A stretch of DNA of 42,838 bases, taken from assembly GCA_030019395.1 (NCBI GenBank), contig JASEES010000049.1:1-42838 (forward strand), in the 5' to 3' direction. How positions within the stretch are numbered: the stretch's first letter is position 1; the number at the start of each line of letters is the position of its first letter. A program made the position numbers and the translations under genes. This document shows, in pieces, positions 3,494 through 42,385 of the stretch. Below the pieces are notes generated by a model. The model was given only the letters and a program-made list of their open reading frames with translations. It searched no databases and was not told the DNA's origin. This DNA comes from Methanolinea sp. GTDB taxonomy: Archaea; Halobacteriota; Methanomicrobia; Methanomicrobiales; Methanospirillaceae.

Positions 3494-3819
3494 AATGATG
3501 ATTTGACGGTTCCCTTTGATTTTTGGAAATTTTTTTCCGGAAATCCCGGGTGGGTGACAGGAAAAGAATGCGGGGGCAGCCCGCCCCTCCATACCAATGG
3601 GGAAAATATCACCCCTTGTTTTCCAGAATCGATACCCCGGCAGTGATTCGGGCTCCAATTTGTTTAAAAAAGACGATATTACTTTTATTTTGAGGAACCA
3701 ACTCATTCCCGCGAGCTGCTGCACTCATGTGGCACACACGCAGAGAATAAAGGAGAATGGGGCGTTTCACTCACGGAAGTGTCCGTGAATGTGGTTTTGG
3801 CCAGGGTTGTGAAAAAAAG
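3494..3819. other. Intergenic region between convergent cobN and pyrI
   Basis: No gene is supported here. Besides the T-runs near the cobN end it holds two short hairpins: GCGGG/CCCGC at 3570-3574/3580-3584, and a perfect 7-bp stem TCACGGA/TCCGTGA at 3771-3777/3782-3788 that may mark the 3' end of the pyrBI transcript. An A/T-rich patch at 3660-3690 resembles a TATA box on the + strand, but nothing convincing follows it, because the open frame starting at 3757 is antisense to pyrI. Confidence 0.4.
3519..3537 (+). terminator. T-rich terminator after cobN
   Basis: Two T-runs (3520-3524 and 3530-3537) lie 25-45 nt after the cobN stop. Archaeal RNA polymerase terminates at such oligo-T stretches without needing a hairpin. 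Confidence 0.4.
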
Positions 3820-4290
3820 TCACATGATGTGGCTCGTGATGTCCTTTGTGATCAGCCAGTCACAGTAGAGGCACCGCAGTCCTTTCTTCTGGACGAGGAA
3901 GCAGGACTGGATGGGCTCGTTTGTATTGGAGATGCAGCCGGGGTTCGGGCAGCGGACGATCCCGACGACCCGGTCCGGGATCTCAACGCCCTTCTTGTCC
4001 CAGACCTTGTAGTTCCGGATGATGTTGATCGATGCCTTGGGGGCAATCAGGGCAATGCGGTCTACCTCCTCTTTCCGGAGCTCACGGTTCTTGATCTTGA
4101 CGATATCCTTTGTTCCGATCTTCTTGCTCTCGACGTTCGTTGCGACCGATATCGACTCGTGCGTGGTCCCCGTGATCCCGATGATGCGCAGCACGTTGAG
4201 AGCTTCTCCCGCGGTGATGTGGTCGATCACGGTCCCGTTCTCTATCGGGCTGATGAGGAGCCCTGCCCGCGCGTCCTTCTCCCGCGTCAT
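3820..4290 (-). CDS. pyrI: Aspartate carbamoyltransferase regulatory subunit
   Basis: This is the regulatory chain of aspartate transcarbamoylase, which binds nucleotide effectors and holds the catalytic trimers together through a zinc domain. The 156-aa length is normal. The N-terminal allosteric domain is recognisable (GTVIDHI near residue 20, then VLRIIGI). The C-terminal zinc site shows the expected four cysteines as CPNPGC near residues 113-118 and CLYC near 141-144. It overlaps the end of pyrB by 4 nt (ATGA), so the two are translationally coupled and made together. Catalysis itself is in PyrB; PyrI gives feedback control of pyrimidine synthesis. Confidence 0.97.
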   Translation of the reverse strand: MTREKDARAGLLISPIENGTVIDHITAGEALNVLRIIGITGTTHESISVATNVESKKIGTKDIVKIKNRELRKEEVDRIALIAPKASINIIRNYKVWDKKGVEIPDRVVGIVRCPNPGCISNTNEPIQSCFLVQKKGLRCLYCDWLITKDITSHIM

Positions 4291-5183
4291 GTCATCACCC
4301 GCAGGAGCATCGCCATCCTGACTGCTATCCCGTTTGCCGACTGTTCGAAATACCGGGCACAGGGAAGTTCGTCGACGCGCGGGTCGATCTCGTCGAGGCG
4401 GGGGAGGGGATGGAGAACGATGAAGTTGTTTTTCGTGCCGGTGAGCAGTTCGGGTGTTACCCGGTAACTCGAGGCGACCTTGAAGTAGGATGCTGCGTCC
4501 GGGAACCGTTCCCTCTGGATCCGCGTGACGTACAGCACGTCGAGGTCACGTATGCACGACGCGATATCGCCATGCTCGATGACCTCCGTCCCGGCATCCC
4601 GGAGCTCGGTGGCAAGCCCGGCCGGGAGTTCGAGTCCCTTGGGCGTGATGGTATGGATCGTCACGTTGTAAAGGGAGAGGGCATGGGTGAGGGAATGAGC
4701 GGTCCTCCCGTACCGGAGGTCACCGAGGAGGCCGACATGGATCCCTTCGAGCGGCATGGACTGCCGGATTGTAAAGAGGTCGAGGAGGGTCTGGGAAGGA
4801 TGCTGCCCCGCCCCGTCACCGGCATTGATCACGGGCACTGTTGCAAACTCGCTTGCGAGGCGCGCTGCCCCCTCTTTCGGATGGCGGAGCACGATCGCGT
4901 CCACGTACCCGCTCACGACCCTGATCGTATCTGCCAGGGTCTCGCCTTTTGCCATGGAACTTGCCTCCACGCTGTCCATGGAGAGGAAGTTTCCCCCGAG
5001 GCGCGCCATCGCAGCCGCAAACGACATCCGTGTCCGCGTGCTCGGTTCGAAAAAAAGGAGCCCAAGCAACTTCCCTTTCAACGCTGAAGGATCGTAGGAG
5101 CGGGACTGGATGGCTGCCGCTTCGTCCAGAATTCTTCCTATCTCCTCCTTTCCCAGATCCCGGATAGAGATGATATGCCGCAT
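4287..5183 (-). CDS. pyrB: Aspartate carbamoyltransferase catalytic subunit
   Basis: It catalyses carbamoyl phosphate + L-aspartate to N-carbamoyl-aspartate + phosphate, the committed step of pyrimidine synthesis, in the cytosol. The 298-aa length is typical. The carbamoyl-phosphate loop FEPSTRTRMSF is near residue 50. HPSQTLLDLFTI near 130 and HPLPRLDEIDPRVD near 260 are the other family blocks. It is first in a two-gene operon with pyrI. The ATG at 5183 is preceded by a weak GGGAAAAG element only. The leader upstream carries a 9-bp inverted repeat and a possible TATA box, listed separately. Confidence 0.97.
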   Translation of the reverse strand: MRHIISIRDLGKEEIGRILDEAAAIQSRSYDPSALKGKLLGLLFFEPSTRTRMSFAAAMARLGGNFLSMDSVEASSMAKGETLADTIRVVSGYVDAIVLRHPKEGAARLASEFATVPVINAGDGAGQHPSQTLLDLFTIRQSMPLEGIHVGLLGDLRYGRTAHSLTHALSLYNVTIHTITPKGLELPAGLATELRDAGTEVIEHGDIASCIRDLDVLYVTRIQRERFPDAASYFKVASSYRVTPELLTGTKNNFIVLHPLPRLDEIDPRVDELPCARYFEQSANGIAVRMAMLLRVMT

Positions 5184-6823: not shown

Positions 6824-8914
6824 GTGGAAGGAAACCAGCAGGACACACGACCAGGGAGAATGATCGCCTTTCCAAACGTCATAGAGAGGCTTGGAAATGC
6901 CGGGATCGAATTTCCCGCGTACGCTATCGCCCGGACACCGGAAGATGCCGCGAGGGCTGCCGATGCCATCGGGTACCCTGTCGTGCTGAAAATCCTGTCC
7001 GACCAGGTTGTTCACAAGACCGACGTTGGCGGGGTTGTCACGGGGATAGGATCCGCAGAGGAGGCCGCCAGGGCCTGCGAAAAGATGCTCCGGGATGTGC
7101 CGTCACGGGTCCCCGGAGCAGTCGTGCAGGGAGTCCTCGTTCAGGCACAGGTTCCTCCAGGTCTTGAAATCATCGTTGGCGGGAAAACAGATCCGACTTT
7201 TGGGAAAGTCATCCTCTGCGGGATGGGCGGGGTTCTCGTCGAGCTTCTCCGGGACGTCTCGATGAGGGTGCTTCCCGTGGGGAAAGACCAGGTCCGGGAA
7301 ATGGTTCACGAGATGAGGGGATACCCGCTCATCCGCGGGTTCCGGGGGTCCCCTCCCCTTGACGAGGAGGCGCTTGTCGATACCATTTTTTCCCTGTCGG
7401 AGGTTTTCTTCCGTGACGACACACTCCTCGAGTTTGACTGTAACCCGGTCATTCTCTTTCGGAAAGGATGCAAGGTCGTTGATATCCGTGCCTTTTCAGG
7501 GAATGCTGCATCGACCCGGGAGGCAGTATCAACCATGCCGGTCGATTGCGGGATATTCACACCCCGGTCAGTGGCAGTCATCGGTGCGTCCGCGGACCCC
7601 GCAAAGATCGGGTATGTCGTCCTGCGGAACCTCCTCTCCTTTTCGGGCGCCGTTTATCCTGTAAATCCCCGCCACACGGAGATACTGGGGAAAAAGGTAT
7701 ACCGGACGGTCGGGGAGATCCCCGGAAATGTCGATGCCGCTGTCGTCGCTGTCCCCGCCCCGGCAGTCCCGGGCGTCATCCGCGAGTGCGGGGAGAAAAA
7801 AATACCCCTCGCAATCATCCTCTCGTCGGGTTTCCGGGAAGACGACGAAGAGGGAGCCAAAAGGGAAGAAGAGGTCCTTTCCATTGCAAAGAGTGCAGGA
7901 ATGCGGATTATCGGCCCTAACTGCCTTGGAATAATCGTGCCCCGGCTTGGACTCAATGCAACGTTCGACCCGGTCATGCCGAGGAACGGTCCCCTGGGGT
8001 TCATATCCCAGAGTGGCGCGGTCATCACGACCATTGTCGACTGGAGCGTTCCCGAGCAGATAGGGTTTTCCATGATCATCAGCGTGGGCAACCAGGCGGA
8101 CCTCGGTTTCGTGGACTATCTCCGGATACTGGAAAAGGATCCCGGTACCCGCGCCATCATCCTCTATATCGAGGAAATCCGGAAAGGTCGGGAATTTCTC
8201 AGGACGGTCGCGGAGATCACGCCGAAAGTCCCCGTGATTGCATTCAAGTCAGGGTCTTCCCGGCTGGGGAGGAAGGCCGCTGCCTCCCACACGGGTTCCC
8301 TTGCAGGCAATTACGAGGTCTACCAGGCAGCATTCAGGCAGGCGGGCATCATTCCTGTGTACTCGATAGAGGAGGCATTCGACGTGGCCGAACTCCTCGC
8401 GTCCGAAGGGTACCCGGAAGGGAACCGCGGGATCGTTGTCACCACGGCGGGTGGTTTTGCCGTCATGGCCTCGGATTTTGCTGACCGGTACGGTATAGAC
8501 CTTGTTCCCCTCCCCGAAAAGATGAGGGAGGAACTGGACTCGTTCCTCCCTCCCATGTGGAGCAGGGAGAACCCGGTGGACATCATCGGCGACGGTGGCG
8601 TGGAGAGATATGCAAGGGTCTTTGATGTTATGACCCGTTTCCAGGATGACTGGGACATCGCAATCATCATTGCCGTACCTTCTGCACTCCTTGATCCTGT
8701 ACACCTCGGGTCCGAGATATCGCGGTTCTCGAAGGCCACGAGGAAGGTTACCATAGGATGCCTCCTTGGAGGAGAGAGCATGAGGGCAGGCGAACGGGTA
8801 CTTCGCGAGAAGCACATCCCCAACTACAGGGAGATCGAGGCAGCTTTCAGGGCAGCGGGAAGAGCGCTGCAATCCCGCATGAAGCCAGGCAGGTCTCAGG
8901 CTGGTATCCGGTAA
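6824..8914 (+). CDS. ADP-forming acyl-CoA (acetyl-CoA) synthetase, fused beta-alpha
   Basis: It interconverts acyl-CoA + ADP + Pi with acid + ATP + CoA through a phosphohistidine intermediate, in the cytosol. The order is an ATP-grasp (beta) domain at about residues 15-225, then a CoA-binding Rossmann domain (VAVIGASADPAKIG near 250), then the succinyl-CoA-synthetase-like part. SHTGSLAG near residue 490 contains the likely swivelling catalytic His. I chose GTG 6824 because a perfect AGGAGG (6811-6816) sits 7 nt upstream. ATG 6860 is possible, and the longer frame to 6707 lacks support. The predicted length is 696 aa, as expected for fused single-chain enzymes. The substrate (acetate, aryl or branched acids) cannot be read from the sequence. 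Confidence 0.9.
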   Translation: MEGNQQDTRPGRMIAFPNVIERLGNAGIEFPAYAIARTPEDAARAADAIGYPVVLKILSDQVVHKTDVGGVVTGIGSAEEAARACEKMLRDVPSRVPGAVVQGVLVQAQVPPGLEIIVGGKTDPTFGKVILCGMGGVLVELLRDVSMRVLPVGKDQVREMVHEMRGYPLIRGFRGSPPLDEEALVDTIFSLSEVFFRDDTLLEFDCNPVILFRKGCKVVDIRAFSGNAASTREAVSTMPVDCGIFTPRSVAVIGASADPAKIGYVVLRNLLSFSGAVYPVNPRHTEILGKKVYRTVGEIPGNVDAAVVAVPAPAVPGVIRECGEKKIPLAIILSSGFREDDEEGAKREEEVLSIAKSAGMRIIGPNCLGIIVPRLGLNATFDPVMPRNGPLGFISQSGAVITTIVDWSVPEQIGFSMIISVGNQADLGFVDYLRILEKDPGTRAIILYIEEIRKGREFLRTVAEITPKVPVIAFKSGSSRLGRKAAASHTGSLAGNYEVYQAAFRQAGIIPVYSIEEAFDVAELLASEGYPEGNRGIVVTTAGGFAVMASDFADRYGIDLVPLPEKMREELDSFLPPMWSRENPVDIIGDGGVERYARVFDVMTRFQDDWDIAIIIAVPSALLDPVHLGSEISRFSKATRKVTIGCLLGGESMRAGERVLREKHIPNYREIEAAFRAAGRALQSRMKPGRSQAGIR

Positions 8915-9420: not shown

Positions 9421-11856
9421 TCAGGTATCCTCGAAAATATCGAAATCATCGTACGGCGATGTGCCTGAGAGGAACTGATCCAGATCGCGTTCGAGATCAC
9501 GTGCATCCTGGTACCTGTCTTCCGGCTTCTTTGCAAGGCAACGCATCACGATAGTGTCGAGGGGCCGGGCAGCGGGATTCAGTTCGGAGGGCAGCGGGGG
9601 CGTGGCGGAGAGGATGGCCGCTGTCACCTGTGCCATGTCCGTGCCGGGGAAAGGCACCCTCCCTGTCAGGAGTTCGTAAAGGACGCAGCCCAGCTGGTAG
9701 ATATCCGTTCTCCTGTCGGTCTCCCCGAATGTCCCGGGAGCGAGCTGTTCGGGGGCAGCGTACGCGAGCGAGAATCCCGTGATGGTCGGCATTCCAGGGA
9801 TACCCATGATCTTGCTCATCCCCCAGTCGGATATCTTTGGAATCCCGTCATTCGTGATCATGATGTTGTGTGGCTTGATATCCCGGTGGATGACCTGCCG
9901 TTCATGTGCATGGGAAAGGCCCCTGCAGAGATCGCGGGCGATTCGCGCGGCTTCCCGGACGGGGAGGGGTTTAGGCACGTCTGCAAGCGTACGCCTGATG
10001 TATTCCATCTCGATATAGGGAATGGGAAGAATGTTGGCCTCGTTCACCCTGACGATATTGGGGTGATAGAGACCCTCCCATCCCCTGATCTCCTTCATGA
10101 ACGATTTCCCTGTGGTTTCGTCAGATCTTAAGGGTATTTTCAGGGCGACCTCCTGGCCTGTGGCGGAATTGACAGCCCGGTAGACATGGGCAAGGCCCCC
10201 CGAACCGATGAACTCGATCGAGGAATACTTGTCGGCAAGATCCGGGGGGAGCATACCCTGCCCGCGGGACGGGAGAGCACGGGTCACATCGCTTGAGTCC
10301 CCCGCTACCCTGTTCTCTGCCTCTCCGCGGGTTCCATGCCCTTTTCCGGCCGGGTACAATCCCTCCTGCCACCTTGCACCAAGCGCTGCGAGCAGGCCTG
10401 AAAGGAGGAACAGGCCCGTTATGGCGGGTGCCGGGTCATCTCCCCGGGCAAGAGAGAAGAGGGAGAGGAATACCATGACGACACCAGCGACTGTATGCGC
10501 CTTCAGCATGCCCCGGAAAGGCCACGACAGGAGTGCTCCGATAACAAGACCCGTGCCGGAGAGAACGAGGTAGAGGGAGACGGGAATGACGACGACAGCA
10601 AGGTCAAAGAAGAGTCCTCCTCCTGCACCCCCGGAGCGGATTGTTGCATGGAGAGCCATTGCCTGGGCTACGCAGGGGATTCCAAGGACGAAAAGGGCAA
10701 TGATTCGCTTTTTGAGGGGAATGAGGGGCTCCCGGGATGAGGAGAGGACATCGCGGGAGAGGATAACGGTTGCAAGGAGACCCGTGACCAGGACGAGCAG
10801 GGTCCGGAGGGGAGAAGAGGGGGGGAGCAGTCCTCCCTGGTTTCCCGGCCCGGTTTCGAATGGCACTGTTGTATTGGAGGGAACGGGAGACGTCGCGGGC
10901 AGACCTGCCGGAGTCGTGCTTTCGATCGGTGTTGTAGTCTCAGTAGGAGTCGGGGAGGTAGTTGTGGTAGTTGTGGGTGTGGGTGTGGGCGAAGGTGTGG
11001 GTGTGGGAGTCCGAGTGGGTGTCGGGGAGGTAGTTGCGGTAGTTGTGGGTGTGGGTGTGGGCGAAGGTGTGGGTGTGGGAGTCTGAGTGGGTGTCGGGGA
11101 GGTAGTTGCGGTAGTTGTGGGTGTGGGTGTAGGCGAAGGTGTGGGTGTGGGAGTCCGAGTGGGAGTAGGAGAGGGAGTTGTGGTAGTTGTGGGTGTGGGT
11201 GTGGGCGAAGGTGTGGGTGTGGGAGTCCGAGTGGGAGTAGGAGAGGTAGTTGTGGGTGTAAGTGTAGGCGAAGGTGTGGGTGTGGGAGTCCGAGTGGGTG
11301 TCGGGGAGGTAGTTGCCGTTGTGGGGATAGGGACAAGGGTGACGAGAGGGACCGTCGTCGTGCTGCCCTCCGAGATCAGGATATCGGTTGCGTAGTCCTC
11401 GTAGCCCTCCAGGACAAGGCGGAGGGAATGCGTGCCGGGAGTGATCCCGTCAAATCTCGCCGGGCCCGTCGGTGTCGTTTTCCCGATGTATGTCCCATCG
11501 AGGAAGACAGATGCACCTGAAGGCGAGGAGTCGATCTCGAGTGTTCCCGTCAGGGGGAGAAAGCTCGCAGCGATGGAGTGGTCTTCCCGGACATTGGTGA
11601 ACGTATAAAACGAGATGGGCCCGAGGGATTTTCCGTCAACCCGGACATCCCCGATCGTGAATCCGTTTGCTGCTTCGATGATGAATATCTGGCTTCCCCC
11701 ATGGTCGACCCGGACTTCACCCGAGGGGGATATTACCCCACCCTCACCGGCGCTTGCCGAAATCGTGTAGGTCTTGACAGCACAGGCGGGACCGATAATC
11801 AAGAGGACAGCGAGGATCAGGATGGTGACAACAGGAATGGACGGACCGGTATTCAT
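9421..11856 (-). CDS. Transmembrane Ser/Thr protein kinase with PEGA and Thr-Pro-rich stalk
   Basis: This 811-aa receptor-like kinase has an inferred extracellular sensor and a cytosolic Hanks-type kinase. Order: signal peptide or anchor (1-26); a divergent InlB-B-repeat-like domain (about 30-100); a PEGA domain (about 104-172, [18 protein letters not shown]); a Ser/Thr/Pro stalk of about 145 residues in repeats of 21-24; several membrane helices (about 345-500); then the kinase (about 545-800). Kinase landmarks are [21 protein letters not shown] and APEQ. The metal-binding motif reads DWG rather than DFG. It starts 23 nt after the HTH-FHA gene, with no clear SD, so translation may depend on the upstream gene. 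The FHA partner suggests a phospho-Thr signalling pair. Stimulus and targets are unknown. Confidence 0.88.
10936..11322 (-). repeat. In-frame minisatellite coding the Thr/Pro stalk
   Basis: Five near-identical units of 63-72 nt plus a partial sixth encode [21 protein letters not shown]-type repeats. Unit lengths are multiples of three. Such repeats change copy number by slippage, so stalk length may vary between strains. Archaeal O-glycosylation of such stalks is possible but not shown. Confidence 0.85.
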
Positions 11857-39097: not shown

Positions 39098-39349
39098 GGA
39101 ATCCGATGTCTCTGATATGTTGTCATTATCGCAACAACTACTTCAAGGTATCTTTATGGTTGAGAGCCCCGGACGCAGGAGCCCATGCAACGTGATCAGG
39201 GATAGAGGATACCCTGTTATTAGTCTTATGGAAAATGTCCCGGGTCCTTACCGGTGCTGACAGGAGGGTGGATGAAGAAGACTACGCCGGCATGGCGAAT
39301 GGTTTCGAATCCATTATCTTGTGTCCGAGCCTAAAAATTAGGGATATCC
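39098..39349. other. Divergent promoter region of operon 2 and the symporter pair
   Basis: A 252-nt gap between divergent units. On the - strand, ACCATAAAGATAC (39148-39160) may be the operon-2 TATA box. On the + strand, CCTAAAAATTAGGG (39330-39343), a short palindrome, lies just before the small peptide gene. No coding sequence is supported. Confidence 0.35.
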
Positions 39350-39457
39350 ATGCAGGAAGGCTTCCTTTTTACCTTCGCAGTCACCGGTTGCACGGTTGTG
39401 GGGGTCATCTTTCTCCTCATCCTCTGGGGTGTCATTTACGGGAGGATGAATCCATGA
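39350..39457 (+). CDS. 35-aa membrane peptide, symporter small accessory protein
   Basis: A tiny gene encoding one hydrophobic helix (GCTVVGVIFLLILWGVIYG) with a short polar tail ending RMNP. Its stop overlaps the symporter start by 4 nt (ATGA), so the two are translationally coupled. Small single-helix companions in front of sodium/solute symporters are known and annotated as symporter small accessory proteins. The assignment rests on position, size and hydrophobicity. Confidence 0.65.
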   Translation: MQEGFLFTFAVTGCTVVGVIFLLILWGVIYGRMNP

Positions 39458-40950
39458 TCGACCCGGTGGATATGGCAATTGTCATCGTTTATTTCCTCAT
39501 CCTCGTTGGGATCGGGGTCGTGGCATCGAAAAAGATCCACACGATGAACGATTACGTGCTTGCAGGCCGATCCCTCGGTTTCTGGCTCTTCACCATGCTG
39601 ATGATAGGTTCCGTCTGCAGCGGGATGTCGCTGCTCGGTGTTTCGGGCCTGGGATACTCGTACGGATGGCCCACCATCTGGGAACAGATTTTTGTCCCGC
39701 TCTCCATCGCGTTCTGTATCGTCTTTTTTGGGGTAAAGATACACGGCCTGGCACAGGAATGGGGGTACCTCACCATACAGGACTACCTCGCCCACCGCTT
39801 CGGAAGTGAGACTGCATTGAGGTCTCTTTCGGCCGTTTCCGGGATAATCGTCTCGCTGATTTACCTTGCCGGGCAGTACACGGCCGTGAGTATCGTTCTC
39901 ATGTGGCTTTTTGGTCTGCCACATTGGATCGCACTCATTACCGGAGCATGCATCGTGACCATCTATACCGTGATTGGCGGATTGTATGCAGTCACATGGA
40001 CAACCCTCATCCAGGGCCTCATCCTCATTGCCGGCGTCCTCGTCATGGCACCACTCGTGATCATGAAGGCAGGCGGTTTTATGCACATAAACGAAGTCAT
40101 GGCCGCGCAGAACCCGGATTTCATCAGGCTCTGGGTCGATTCCGGTCTTTTTACCCCTGCCTATATCTTCTCTTTCTCCCTTCTCCTGATGGTGGGGCTG
40201 GCGTGTGCTCCTCACGTTATCAATAACGTCCTTGCTGTAAAAAACGCTTCATTCTTCAAGTGGGCACCGCTCGTTGCATTCTGCATCTACGGGCTGGTCA
40301 TGTTCCTTCTCAAATTCGGTGGATTTGCAGGAAGGGTGCTTGTCAGCGAGGGGATAATTACCCTGCCGCCCGTCAAGAATGCAGGGGATTTCGTGTTCAT
40401 TTACGCTATCCAGTCCGCTCTCCCGAATATTGTACTATGGGGGGTTTTTGCCGTTGTCGTCCTTGCCGCCGTCATGTCTACAACGGACCGCCTGATGCTC
40501 ACAATTGGGACGTATTTTTCATGGGACATTTTTAAAAGTCTCATCAAACCGGATGCCACAGACAGGCAGGTAATCCTCGTCAGCAGGGTATCCGTTGCCG
40601 CAGCAGCCATCCTGACAGTGCTGATGGCACTTGACCCGCCTGCAATGCTCGTCTGGCTGATATGGGCAGGTATCGGGATCATGTTCGCCACATTCGCGGT
40701 TCCCCTCCTTGCCGGGCTCTACTGGAAGAGGGCAACGCGGGAAGGTGCGCTGGCCGCAATGGCCCTCGGGCTCGTCACTTCGTGCCTGGCAGGGGGCCTG
40801 ACGTATTTTAAGATCATGCCATTGCCCGTCCATTTCAGTCTTTTCGGGGTTCTCGTTGCCATTGCAGCGATGGTCATCGTAAGCCTCATGACGCCTCCGA
40901 CAAGTCCCCGTGTCCTTGAGGAGACAAAGACGGGTTTTTTCCTGAAATAG
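39454..40950 (+). CDS. Sodium/solute symporter (SSS family)
   Basis: This Na+-coupled transporter is 498 aa with 12-13 hydrophobic helices. The SSS pattern is visible: DYVLAGRSLGFW near residue 30, GSVCSGMSLLGVSGLGY near 52, GQYTAVSI near 137, and SRVSVAAAAILT near 375. GGGAGG lies 8 nt before ATG 39454. The longer frame to 39235 is unsupported. It resembles the pantothenate/proline/carboxylate branch, but the solute cannot be told. It shares its upstream gap with ATP synthase operon 2. Confidence 0.9.
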   Translation: MIDPVDMAIVIVYFLILVGIGVVASKKIHTMNDYVLAGRSLGFWLFTMLMIGSVCSGMSLLGVSGLGYSYGWPTIWEQIFVPLSIAFCIVFFGVKIHGLAQEWGYLTIQDYLAHRFGSETALRSLSAVSGIIVSLIYLAGQYTAVSIVLMWLFGLPHWIALITGACIVTIYTVIGGLYAVTWTTLIQGLILIAGVLVMAPLVIMKAGGFMHINEVMAAQNPDFIRLWVDSGLFTPAYIFSFSLLLMVGLACAPHVINNVLAVKNASFFKWAPLVAFCIYGLVMFLLKFGGFAGRVLVSEGIITLPPVKNAGDFVFIYAIQSALPNIVLWGVFAVVVLAAVMSTTDRLMLTIGTYFSWDIFKSLIKPDATDRQVILVSRVSVAAAAILTVLMALDPPAMLVWLIWAGIGIMFATFAVPLLAGLYWKRATREGALAAMALGLVTSCLAGGLTYFKIMPLPVHFSLFGVLVAIAAMVIVSLMTPPTSPRVLEETKTGFFLK

Positions 40951-41057
40951 GTTTTTTCAGAAAAAAAGGGGTTCCGTGACATGCGCCGGGCATGGACCCC
41001 CCGTTCCCCGATTCATTGCGGGTGGCGCCTTCATTCGCTTTATGCGCGCTTCCCTCC
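40951..41057. other. Gap after the symporter gene
   Basis: A T-run (40952-40957) immediately after the symporter stop, followed by an A-run, is a likely archaeal terminator. The remaining bases hold no gene that I can support. Confidence 0.4.
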
Positions 41058-41120
41058 TTTATAAACATAATAAAGCCTATAAAAGGGTGACAAGATCAAA
41101 AATTATATTAACTATAAAAG
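41058..41120 (+). promoter_or_regulatory. A/T-rich promoter cluster for the structured RNA
   Basis: Three TATA-like boxes on the + strand lie in a sharply A/T-rich tract: TTTATAAA (41058-41065), CCTATAAAAG (41076-41085) and CTATAAAAG (41112-41120). The last would start transcription near 41140 and the others further upstream. No open frame with RBS follows, which fits a non-coding transcript. Confidence 0.6.
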
Positions 41121-41164
41121 CTATATGGGGTATGCCTCAGTGGGGAACTGACTGGGGATACCTG

Positions 41165-41259
41165 CCACAGTGAAATGAGTCCCCGGATCGAAACGGCTCG
41201 AAGGTCCGGGTGACGAAGAAGTCATTCACTGCGGGGCCGAACAAATGTTCAGGTAACAT
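41165..41259 (+). repeat. RNA module copy 1
   Basis: Outer stem 41165-41178 with 41221-41234 (one mismatch, one bulged A). Inner stem CCCGGATC 41182-41189 with GGTCCGGG 41203-41210. Loop AACGGC 41192-41197, tail GGCCG 41235-41239. Spacer hairpin ATGTT/AACAT 41245-41259. Confidence 0.75.
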
Positions 41260-41260
41260 A

Positions 41261-41361
41261 CTGCCGTGATGACTTGAACTCATGGTCCAGAACGGCGAAA
41301 AAGGCCATGAGTGACAAAGAAAGGTCATCATCGGGGCCGTAAGAGTATGTTCAAGGAACAT
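41261..41361 (+). repeat. RNA module copy 2
   Basis: Outer stem CCGTGATGAC (41264-41273) with GGTCATCATCGG (41323-41334), one bulge. Inner stem CTCATGGTC 41279-41287 with GGCCATGAG 41303-41311. Loop AACGGC 41291-41296, tail GGCCG 41335-41339. Spacer hairpin ATGTTC/GAACAT 41347-41361. Confidence 0.75.
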
Positions 41362-41365
41362 GATG

Positions 41366-41458
41366 CTGCAATACCCCGAACCCGTATCTCAAAACGGCGA
41401 AAGAGGTACGGGTGATAAAAACGAGGTATCGCAGGGCCGAACGTGTGTTTCCAGAAAT
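41366..41458 (+). repeat. RNA module copy 3
   Basis: Outer stem CTGCAATACCCC 41366-41377 with GAGGTATCGCAG 41423-41434 (two mismatches). Inner stem CCCGTATCTC 41381-41390 with GAGGTACGGG 41403-41412. Loop AACGGC 41393-41398, tail GGCCG 41435-41439. The following spacer hairpin is weaker, with several G-U pairs. Confidence 0.75.
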
Positions 41459-41574
41459 GTCCTCACGGGGCACCCGTTCCGGACACTATTTTCCCGTTAT
41501 CTGATTGGAAATTTCGTTACAGATCCAAGGTTATCGATGATGGAAAACTTTGAATAAAATACGACCCACAAGGA

Positions 41575-41743: not shown

Positions 41744-42385
41744 TCACCTTCCTTTTGACAGGAGGGCAAGACCCCTTTCAAACTCATCCAGGTATGCCTG
41801 CAGGGAGAGGGAACCTTCAGGGAAAGGGCAGTCCGGGTCGCGGTTTTTTTCGAGAGTGGAAGCAGATGGCAGGAGGAGGTCGAGCATAATCCCTGTTTTC
41901 CGGCTTGCCCTGCACATCGCCTCCCTGAAGGGGCCGATGCAATAAGCCACCCGTTTCCTGTAGATGTCTTTCGTTTTTGTCAGGTATGCTGCAAGGCGGT
42001 AGGTCTCTATCTCGAGGAAAGCCTCGCGTATGGTATTGTCCGTGCATTTCCCGAGCATGTAATGGTAGTGCGCAAAGGGATACATCAGCTCGAGTTCTCT
42101 GGGGACGACACCGCAGGTTCCAAAAACAACGATATGGTAGGTATCTGGGAGAACCCGGGAATCGATGATCCTCTGGAAAAGGCGGTGACTCGGGCTGCTG
42201 CTGTATGGTTTCCTGAGGGCACAGGGGAGAAATATCGCGATCTCTCTTTTTGGTGGAGTGTAGGTGCTGATGATGAAACGGAATGCGTCCTCGAATTCTG
42301 GGAGAAAAAAGGGAGGATCATTTATGATAATGCCATCCCGGGTAAGATGAGAATCATCCTGTTCCTTTATACCGCCGCCTGTCAT
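41744..42385 (-). CDS. DUF5591-domain protein (archaeosine-synthase-like)
   Basis: A 213-aa protein with the DUF5591 pattern found in ArcS-type archaeosine synthases: LRKPYSSSPSHRLF near residue 58 and GVVPRELELMYPFAHYHY near residues 92-109. Stand-alone, without the TGT-like or PUA domains, it is probably not a full ArcS, and its reaction is unknown. Usual DUF5591 proteins read AHYDIPVTG here; this one has AHYHYMLGK. ATG 42385 has a TATA box (TTTAAAAAATATT, 42401-42413) about 22 nt upstream, which fits a leaderless mRNA. Confidence 0.65.
   Translation of the reverse strand: MTGGGIKEQDDSHLTRDGIIINDPPFFLPEFEDAFRFIISTYTPPKREIAIFLPCALRKPYSSSPSHRLFQRIIDSRVLPDTYHIVVFGTCGVVPRELELMYPFAHYHYMLGKCTDNTIREAFLEIETYRLAAYLTKTKDIYRKRVAYCIGPFREAMCRASRKTGIMLDLLLPSASTLEKNRDPDCPFPEGSLSLQAYLDEFERGLALLSKGR

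Follow-up and report, generated by a model that had tools for sequence, protein, structure and literature searches.

Three copies of a folded unit lie in tandem in an intergenic region of a Methanolinea sp. genome of 1.8 Mb, within a contig of 42,838 nt that was analysed at full length and is called the window below. The initial annotation had described them as an unrecognised pseudoknotted RNA, and the question that the locus raises is whether they belong to a gene for an RNA in its own right or to a leader, a guide or a ribozyme of a known kind, and what such an RNA might do. We conclude that the family to which this RNA belongs is almost certainly one of stand-alone, non-coding structured RNAs of the Methanomicrobiales; our reading of its function is a good deal more tentative.

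Architecture of the RNA

The host intergenic region is bounded by a sodium:solute symporter gene (39235-40950, + strand; PF00474) and a DUF5591 gene (41744-42385, - strand; PF17884). On the + strand between them, the structured RNA occupies 41134-41471 plus a short tail, about 340-360 nt with three modules. The tandem arrangement, its period of 99-102 nt and its place were as first annotated, with modules of about 80 nt starting at 41163, 41262 and 41364 (spacings of 99 and 102 nt), but the start of the RNA, originally put at 41129, is better placed at about 41134, the first base of helix P1. This helix (41134-41145 / 41461-41471), which closes the whole RNA, had not been described before, nor had the two long-range helices P4 (ATGTTC/GAACAT) and P5 (AACATAC/GTATGTT), which form an arm that carries module 2. 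The features of the locus are as follows.

41043-41049, + strand: TGCGCGC element (position -91 relative to the start of the RNA); the only + strand TGCGCGC copy in the window
41096-41110, + strand: BRE/TATA-like promoter (TCAAAAA TTATATTA); position of the TATA-like box conserved across 44 loci
41134-41145, + strand: P1 5' strand of the closing helix (GCCTCAGTGGGG) and predicted transcript start; 94% paired in 24 homologues, mostly invariant
41152-41161, + strand: P2 5' strand (CTGGGGATAC), tentative; paired in the window
41163-41243, + strand: module 1; 72.4 bits, E 1.5e-13 with model R2; covariation; pseudoknot 41194-41197 with 41236-41239
41245-41250, + strand: P4 5' strand (ATGTTC), partner 41356-41361; fully paired (100%) in 24 homologues, with two double changes
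41255-41261, + strand: P5 5' strand (AACATAC), partner 41345-41351; 8 double-change cells versus 2.3 in shuffles
41262-41343, + strand: module 2; 74.8 bits, E 4.0e-14 with model R2; pseudoknot 41293-41296 with 41336-41339
41345-41351, + strand: P5 3' strand (GTATGTT), pairs with 41255-41261
41356-41361, + strand: P4 3' strand (GAACAT), pairs with 41245-41250
41364-41443, + strand: module 3; 79.9 bits, E 2.5e-15 with model R2; pseudoknot 41395-41398 with 41436-41439
41445-41454, + strand: P2 3' strand (GTGTTTCCAG), tentative, pairs with 41152-41161
41461-41471, + strand: P1 3' strand (CCTCACGGGGC), pairs with 41134-41145
41487-41492, + strand: TATTTT, likely termination site; T-run enrichment 3' of P1 in homologues (crude)

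Local inter-module hairpins (ATGTT/AACAT) could form in the window instead of P4 and P5, but in divergent homologues such as L004 and L025 the long-range pairs alone are retained, and among the homologues double changes occur in P4 and P5 but not in the local hairpins. For P2 the pairing is plausible, without support from covariation (83% paired, the same as the 83% in shuffles).

From its 5' side, each module comprises an outer helix (about 10 bp), one or two unpaired A bases, an inner helix (about 11 bp) and a loop containing AAACGGC; its 3' side then runs through about 8 nt of A-rich sequence near GACAAAGA and the second strand of the outer helix to GGGCCG. The internal loop is asymmetric and A-rich, and a kink-turn, an idea that came from GA dinucleotides, was dropped on account of the 5' side of this loop, which is just 1-2 nt long. 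The two-stem fold, with the inner stems and constant parts originally claimed, was borne out, each module folding better than its dinucleotide shuffles (z of -3.2, -3.2 and -3.5 for modules 1-3, and of -4.9 for the entire region). A G-U pair reported at the same place in every inner stem is indeed present in the three copies of the window, but is not conserved in homologues.

Loops and shape are constant among the module copies while the stem sequence varies freely. Tandem Repeats Finder reported no repeat at the RNA, so that what is repeated here is structure and not sequence: the sequence has drifted and the structure has stayed. Elsewhere in the window, a G-rich tandem repeat (10928-11316; 72-base period, 5.5 copies) lies inside a minus-strand reading frame (9421-11856).

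In a structure-free MAFFT alignment of 36 modules, standard pairs fill 88.5% of the paired cells versus 66.0% after shuffling, and 22 of the 25 pairs show double changes. An alignment of 121 distinct modules, which was fitted to the covariance model and is therefore biased towards it, gave 89.8% versus 64.0%, with 868 double-change cells versus 252 in shuffles; sliding the structure along it lowered the paired fraction to 28-37%. Across both alignments, 22-23 of the 25 pairs carry double changes. The covariation is overwhelming, and evolution firmly supports the structure of the modular RNA.

The pseudoknot

The proposed pairing between the tail of each module and its loop is upheld by compensated changes in homologues. 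The apical loop CGGC is complementary to a GCCG directly 3' of the outer stem in 104 of 124 modules, and the pair has changed on both sides to CAGC/GCUG in L033, L024 and L113 (genera g15 and g3) and to CGGU/ACCG in L105 and L110 (families f3 and f5), with L027 showing a G-U intermediate. One pair of the module 3 pseudoknot changes from GC to AU or GU in homologues. RNAs with one module often have CGGUU/AACCG, and since a second module is absent from them, pairing between modules is excluded there. The weakest pseudoknot is that of genus g35 in f5 (CGGU/UCCG), with 3 contiguous pairs only. By eye, the middle modules of f2 and f4 have a rebuilt apical loop and keep another loop-tail complementarity, such as ACGC/GCGU (L103) or CCGGC/GCCGG (L096).

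These data bear on the idea of an antisense small RNA whose conserved loops would pair with mRNAs or rRNA. The conservation of the loop AAACGGC and of the A-rich strand, as well as a trans-encoded gene with its own promoter (see below), would suit such a role. However, CGGC is taken up by an intramolecular pairing that covaries with the tail, which would be unexpected for a seed, and the identical loop is retained in all copies; we regard antisense action as distinctly improbable.

Distribution and number of modules

By blastn, each of the 12 remaining genomes in the genus has a homologue, and 11 more genomes from family f1 have a full-length or partial one. Every one of the 13 genomes in the genus, the host included, carries three modules, no more and no fewer. 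Searching with covariance models (Infernal), as proposed in the initial annotation, recovered homologues with covarying stems. In the host genome, model R2 matched the three modules only (E 1.5e-13 or better; the next match has E = 2.7), and a scan of named genomes gave matches in Methanolinea and Methanoregulaceae MAGs. Among 232 Methanomicrobiales genomes, 52 were positive with model R1 (36 modules) and 71, from families f1 to f5, with the rebuilt R2 (124 modules), both counts being lower bounds owing to Infernal's stricter filters. No genome outside the Methanomicrobiales matched R2 in a 393-genome sample across the phylum.

By model score, module number differs between families: two or three modules in f4, where the middle one is weaker, two clear modules and a divergent middle one in genus g27 of f2, and one in f3 and f5. 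In f5, which we take to be a Methanoculleus-like family, the single-module form is the rule, with an RNA of about 140 nt that holds its module within the same closing helix; covariation of P1 is clear among these RNAs (GCCTGAGAG/CTCTCGGGC, GCCTGGGAG/CTCCCGGGC, GCCTGAGGG/CCCTCGGGC). Some f5 genomes have two or three separate single-module genes (L106 at 3360 and 3771; L107 with L108; L109). The L109 copies (3751-3831 and 7585-7665) are identical over 81 bases and lie 3.8 kb apart, so some gene copies in f5 are recent duplicates.

In MAG G230 the short contigs C159 and C267 bear two differing versions of the RNA (L053 and L047), for which the 4% contamination of this MAG is a likely reason. One match in G063 (C1:1853654, E 0.005) has neither closing helix nor promoter and was taken as chance. 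A viral origin was also considered: a loose DNA pattern matched three IMG/VR contigs, where R2 gave E of 0.8 or worse, again attributed to chance, and by-eye reading places two of the three matches inside homologous, terminase-like phage ORFs.

The range of sizes also bears on whether the RNA could be a structural or oligomeric scaffold comparable to OLE, ROOL and GOLLD, acting as one body and not through separate binding sites. Its global fold, with closing and long-range helices, is intricate enough to suggest this, and RNA-only assemblies of ornate RNAs are reported from bacteria (PMC12286853). However, the 140-nt form with one module is very small for such a role, and the conserved unit is the module and not the global fold, so that we consider a scaffold of this type quite unlikely.

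A gene of its own

The initial annotation had suggested that the RNA has its own promoter, and comparison of 44 loci from several families agrees: a TATA-like box precedes P1, with a median distance of 26 nt from its centre to the first base of the helix, and its score is at least 6/8 in 89% of these loci versus 10% of random control stretches. About 26 nt is the usual distance from TATA box to start in archaeal promoters, so transcription is expected to begin at or close to the 5' end of P1. On the evidence of this constant position, the RNA has a conserved promoter of its own. At the other end, T-runs of at least four within 30 nt 3' of P1 occur in 46% of 24 loci versus 7% of controls, a crude measure. 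G-U exceeds A-C at paired positions (200 versus 126), which favours the + strand. Of 122 indels among homologues, 121 have lengths not divisible by three and would break a reading frame, which rules out coding, and no open reading frame is common to the homologues.

Upstream of the promoter, TGCGCG occurs at -89 to -91 in 16 of 24 f1 loci, at a fixed distance within surroundings that cannot be aligned; TGCGCGC itself has one copy on each strand of the 42.8-kb window. This element may be the binding site of a regulator of the RNA gene.

Neighbouring genes

In f1 a symporter gene often lies before the RNA, and DUF5591 and DUF6908 after it. The RNA lies beside a CO dehydrogenase or RNase III-domain gene in f4, a Clp1-type kinase in f2, a cation efflux gene and DUF169 in g5, and a ferredoxin and DUF421 in f5; no gene or function common to these neighbourhoods across families was found. 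The genes downstream of homologues vary and are mostly on the opposite strand, and at the window locus, as had been noted, no + strand gene follows, the downstream genes lying on the other strand. Since the neighbours differ between families, cis regulation of a neighbour is unlikely and action in trans is most likely, in line with the earlier argument against a classical riboswitch.

It should be noted that an RNase III-domain gene (PF00636) adjoins the RNA in five f4 loci (L101, region 4150-4900; L098; three others). RNase III, which is unusual for archaea, is present in 211 of the 232 Methanomicrobiales genomes, whereas no archaeal control genome has it. As a candidate partner of the RNA it is uninformative, being near-universal in the order with or without the RNA.

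Could each module nevertheless bind a small molecule or ion as an aptamer, either in a stand-alone sensor or in a leader where P1 and the U-tract form a ligand-dependent terminator? The compact pseudoknotted fold with invariant loop bases would fit an aptamer, tandem aptamers are known for several riboswitches, and a + strand ORF begins 95-322 nt downstream in a few loci (L021, L028, L025). However, no gene or function recurs beside the RNA across families, the genes downstream in the window are on the opposite strand, P1 closes the entire RNA and leaves no alternative expression platform, and there is no match to an Rfam riboswitch. Overall, we judge the aptamer reading unlikely.

Comparison with known RNAs

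The description of the RNA as unrecognised was correct with respect to Rfam 15: no match reached the curated gathering score in the window (the best in the RNA region has E 8.8), and none was found at the RNA in the tested relatives, where only two tRNAs matched elsewhere. Nor did we find a description in the searchable literature, although an earlier mention that never entered Rfam is possible. As far as sequence comparison goes, this is a new RNA family that matches no known family, and its role may prove to belong to a known type.

Archaeal RNase P RNA (RF00373) and SRP RNA (RF01857) are likewise conserved structured archaeal RNAs of similar length, but covariance models place both elsewhere in the host genome, on C14 and C10. 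The ornate orphan RNAs OLE, ROOL, GOLLD and raiA resemble our RNA in being strongly conserved, intricate, stand-alone and noncoding, whereas the present RNA is archaeal, modular and 140-350 nt long, and the window has no match to these Rfam families. Protein coding and a simple tandem repeat were considered as well; no shared frame and, at the RNA, no TRF repeat were found.

Archaeal H/ACA guide RNAs are likewise built of tandem hairpins, one to three in number, that have an internal loop, and three-hairpin forms are known in other archaea, so the three hairpins seen here, 99-102 nt apart, could be thought to form a divergent member. However, the outer stems are followed by GGGGCCGAACA, GGGGCCGTAAG and AGGGCCGAACG, with no constant ACA (ANA) 3' of the modules; the internal loop, with 1-2 nt in its 5' strand, offers no two-sided guide pocket; the apical loop, unlike that of H/ACA RNAs, pairs with the 3' tail; and no Rfam H/ACA family matched. 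This identity is therefore extremely improbable. A self-cleaving ribozyme in each module is another reading that we consider very improbable: small ribozymes typically have pseudoknotted folds, but modules 1-3 are held within common long-range and closing helices, which cleavage would separate, and no Rfam ribozyme family scored in the region.

Tandem riboswitch aptamers (for example those for glycine) also carry repeated folded or pseudoknotted units in one transcript, but our RNA has no link to a particular downstream gene, as no same-strand downstream gene or pathway recurs in homologues, and a terminal helix closes it; Rfam gave no match here either. The CsrB/RsmZ-type protein-titrating RNAs would be comparable in their way of working only: they too are stand-alone, have a variable number of structured units and sometimes several genes per genome. 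Their units are short GGA hairpins and bacterial, whereas the unit here is an archaeal pseudoknot of about 80 nt without Rfam match, repeated 1-3 times per RNA, whose conserved loop is ACGGC and not GGA.

Proposed mechanism

We can present a rough proposal. Because the loop of a module pairs with the base of the same module across two helices of near-equal length, a fold-back is required at the A-rich internal loop, which would bring the inner helix alongside the outer one. A constant shape with constant loops, freely varying stem sequence, variable repeat number and a trans-encoded gene are best explained by a binding unit for a common partner. As its modularity and location suggest, the RNA would then be a trans-acting platform or decoy to which a single cellular partner, most likely a protein, binds, one per module. 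The number of modules, 1 to 3 per transcript, and that of genes, sometimes several per genome, would set avidity or dose. In outline this mechanism would resemble that of CsrB-type RNAs, to which the RNA is unrelated.

We hold this protein-platform mechanism with a confidence a little short of even; the conserved pocket with its invariant unpaired A's would be equally suited to a small ligand. The whole statement, that of a stand-alone RNA family with a conserved promoter acting as a trans binding platform or decoy with one partner, probably a protein, per module, appears to us about as tentative. The initial annotation had taken the three units to suggest cooperative ligand or protein binding, or a sponge RNA. 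As the single-module form is the rule in f5, three units, and hence multivalency, are not essential for function; this weakens the argument for cooperativity, and a binding module is still plausible.

Significance

To our knowledge, few structured RNA families are private to archaea. The RNA described here possibly represents, though with some doubt, a new archaeal RNA class, in which an interchangeable, self-docking pseudoknot module of evolved copy number would serve as the scaffold of an undescribed ribonucleoprotein in the Methanomicrobiales. The family occurs in hydrogenotrophic methanogens of wetlands and digesters. Its single-module form of about 140 nt in f5 is small enough for structure determination and pull-downs, and RNAs with one, two and three modules on a shared closing helix exist in nature, which makes the function of the unit and the role of multivalency directly comparable.
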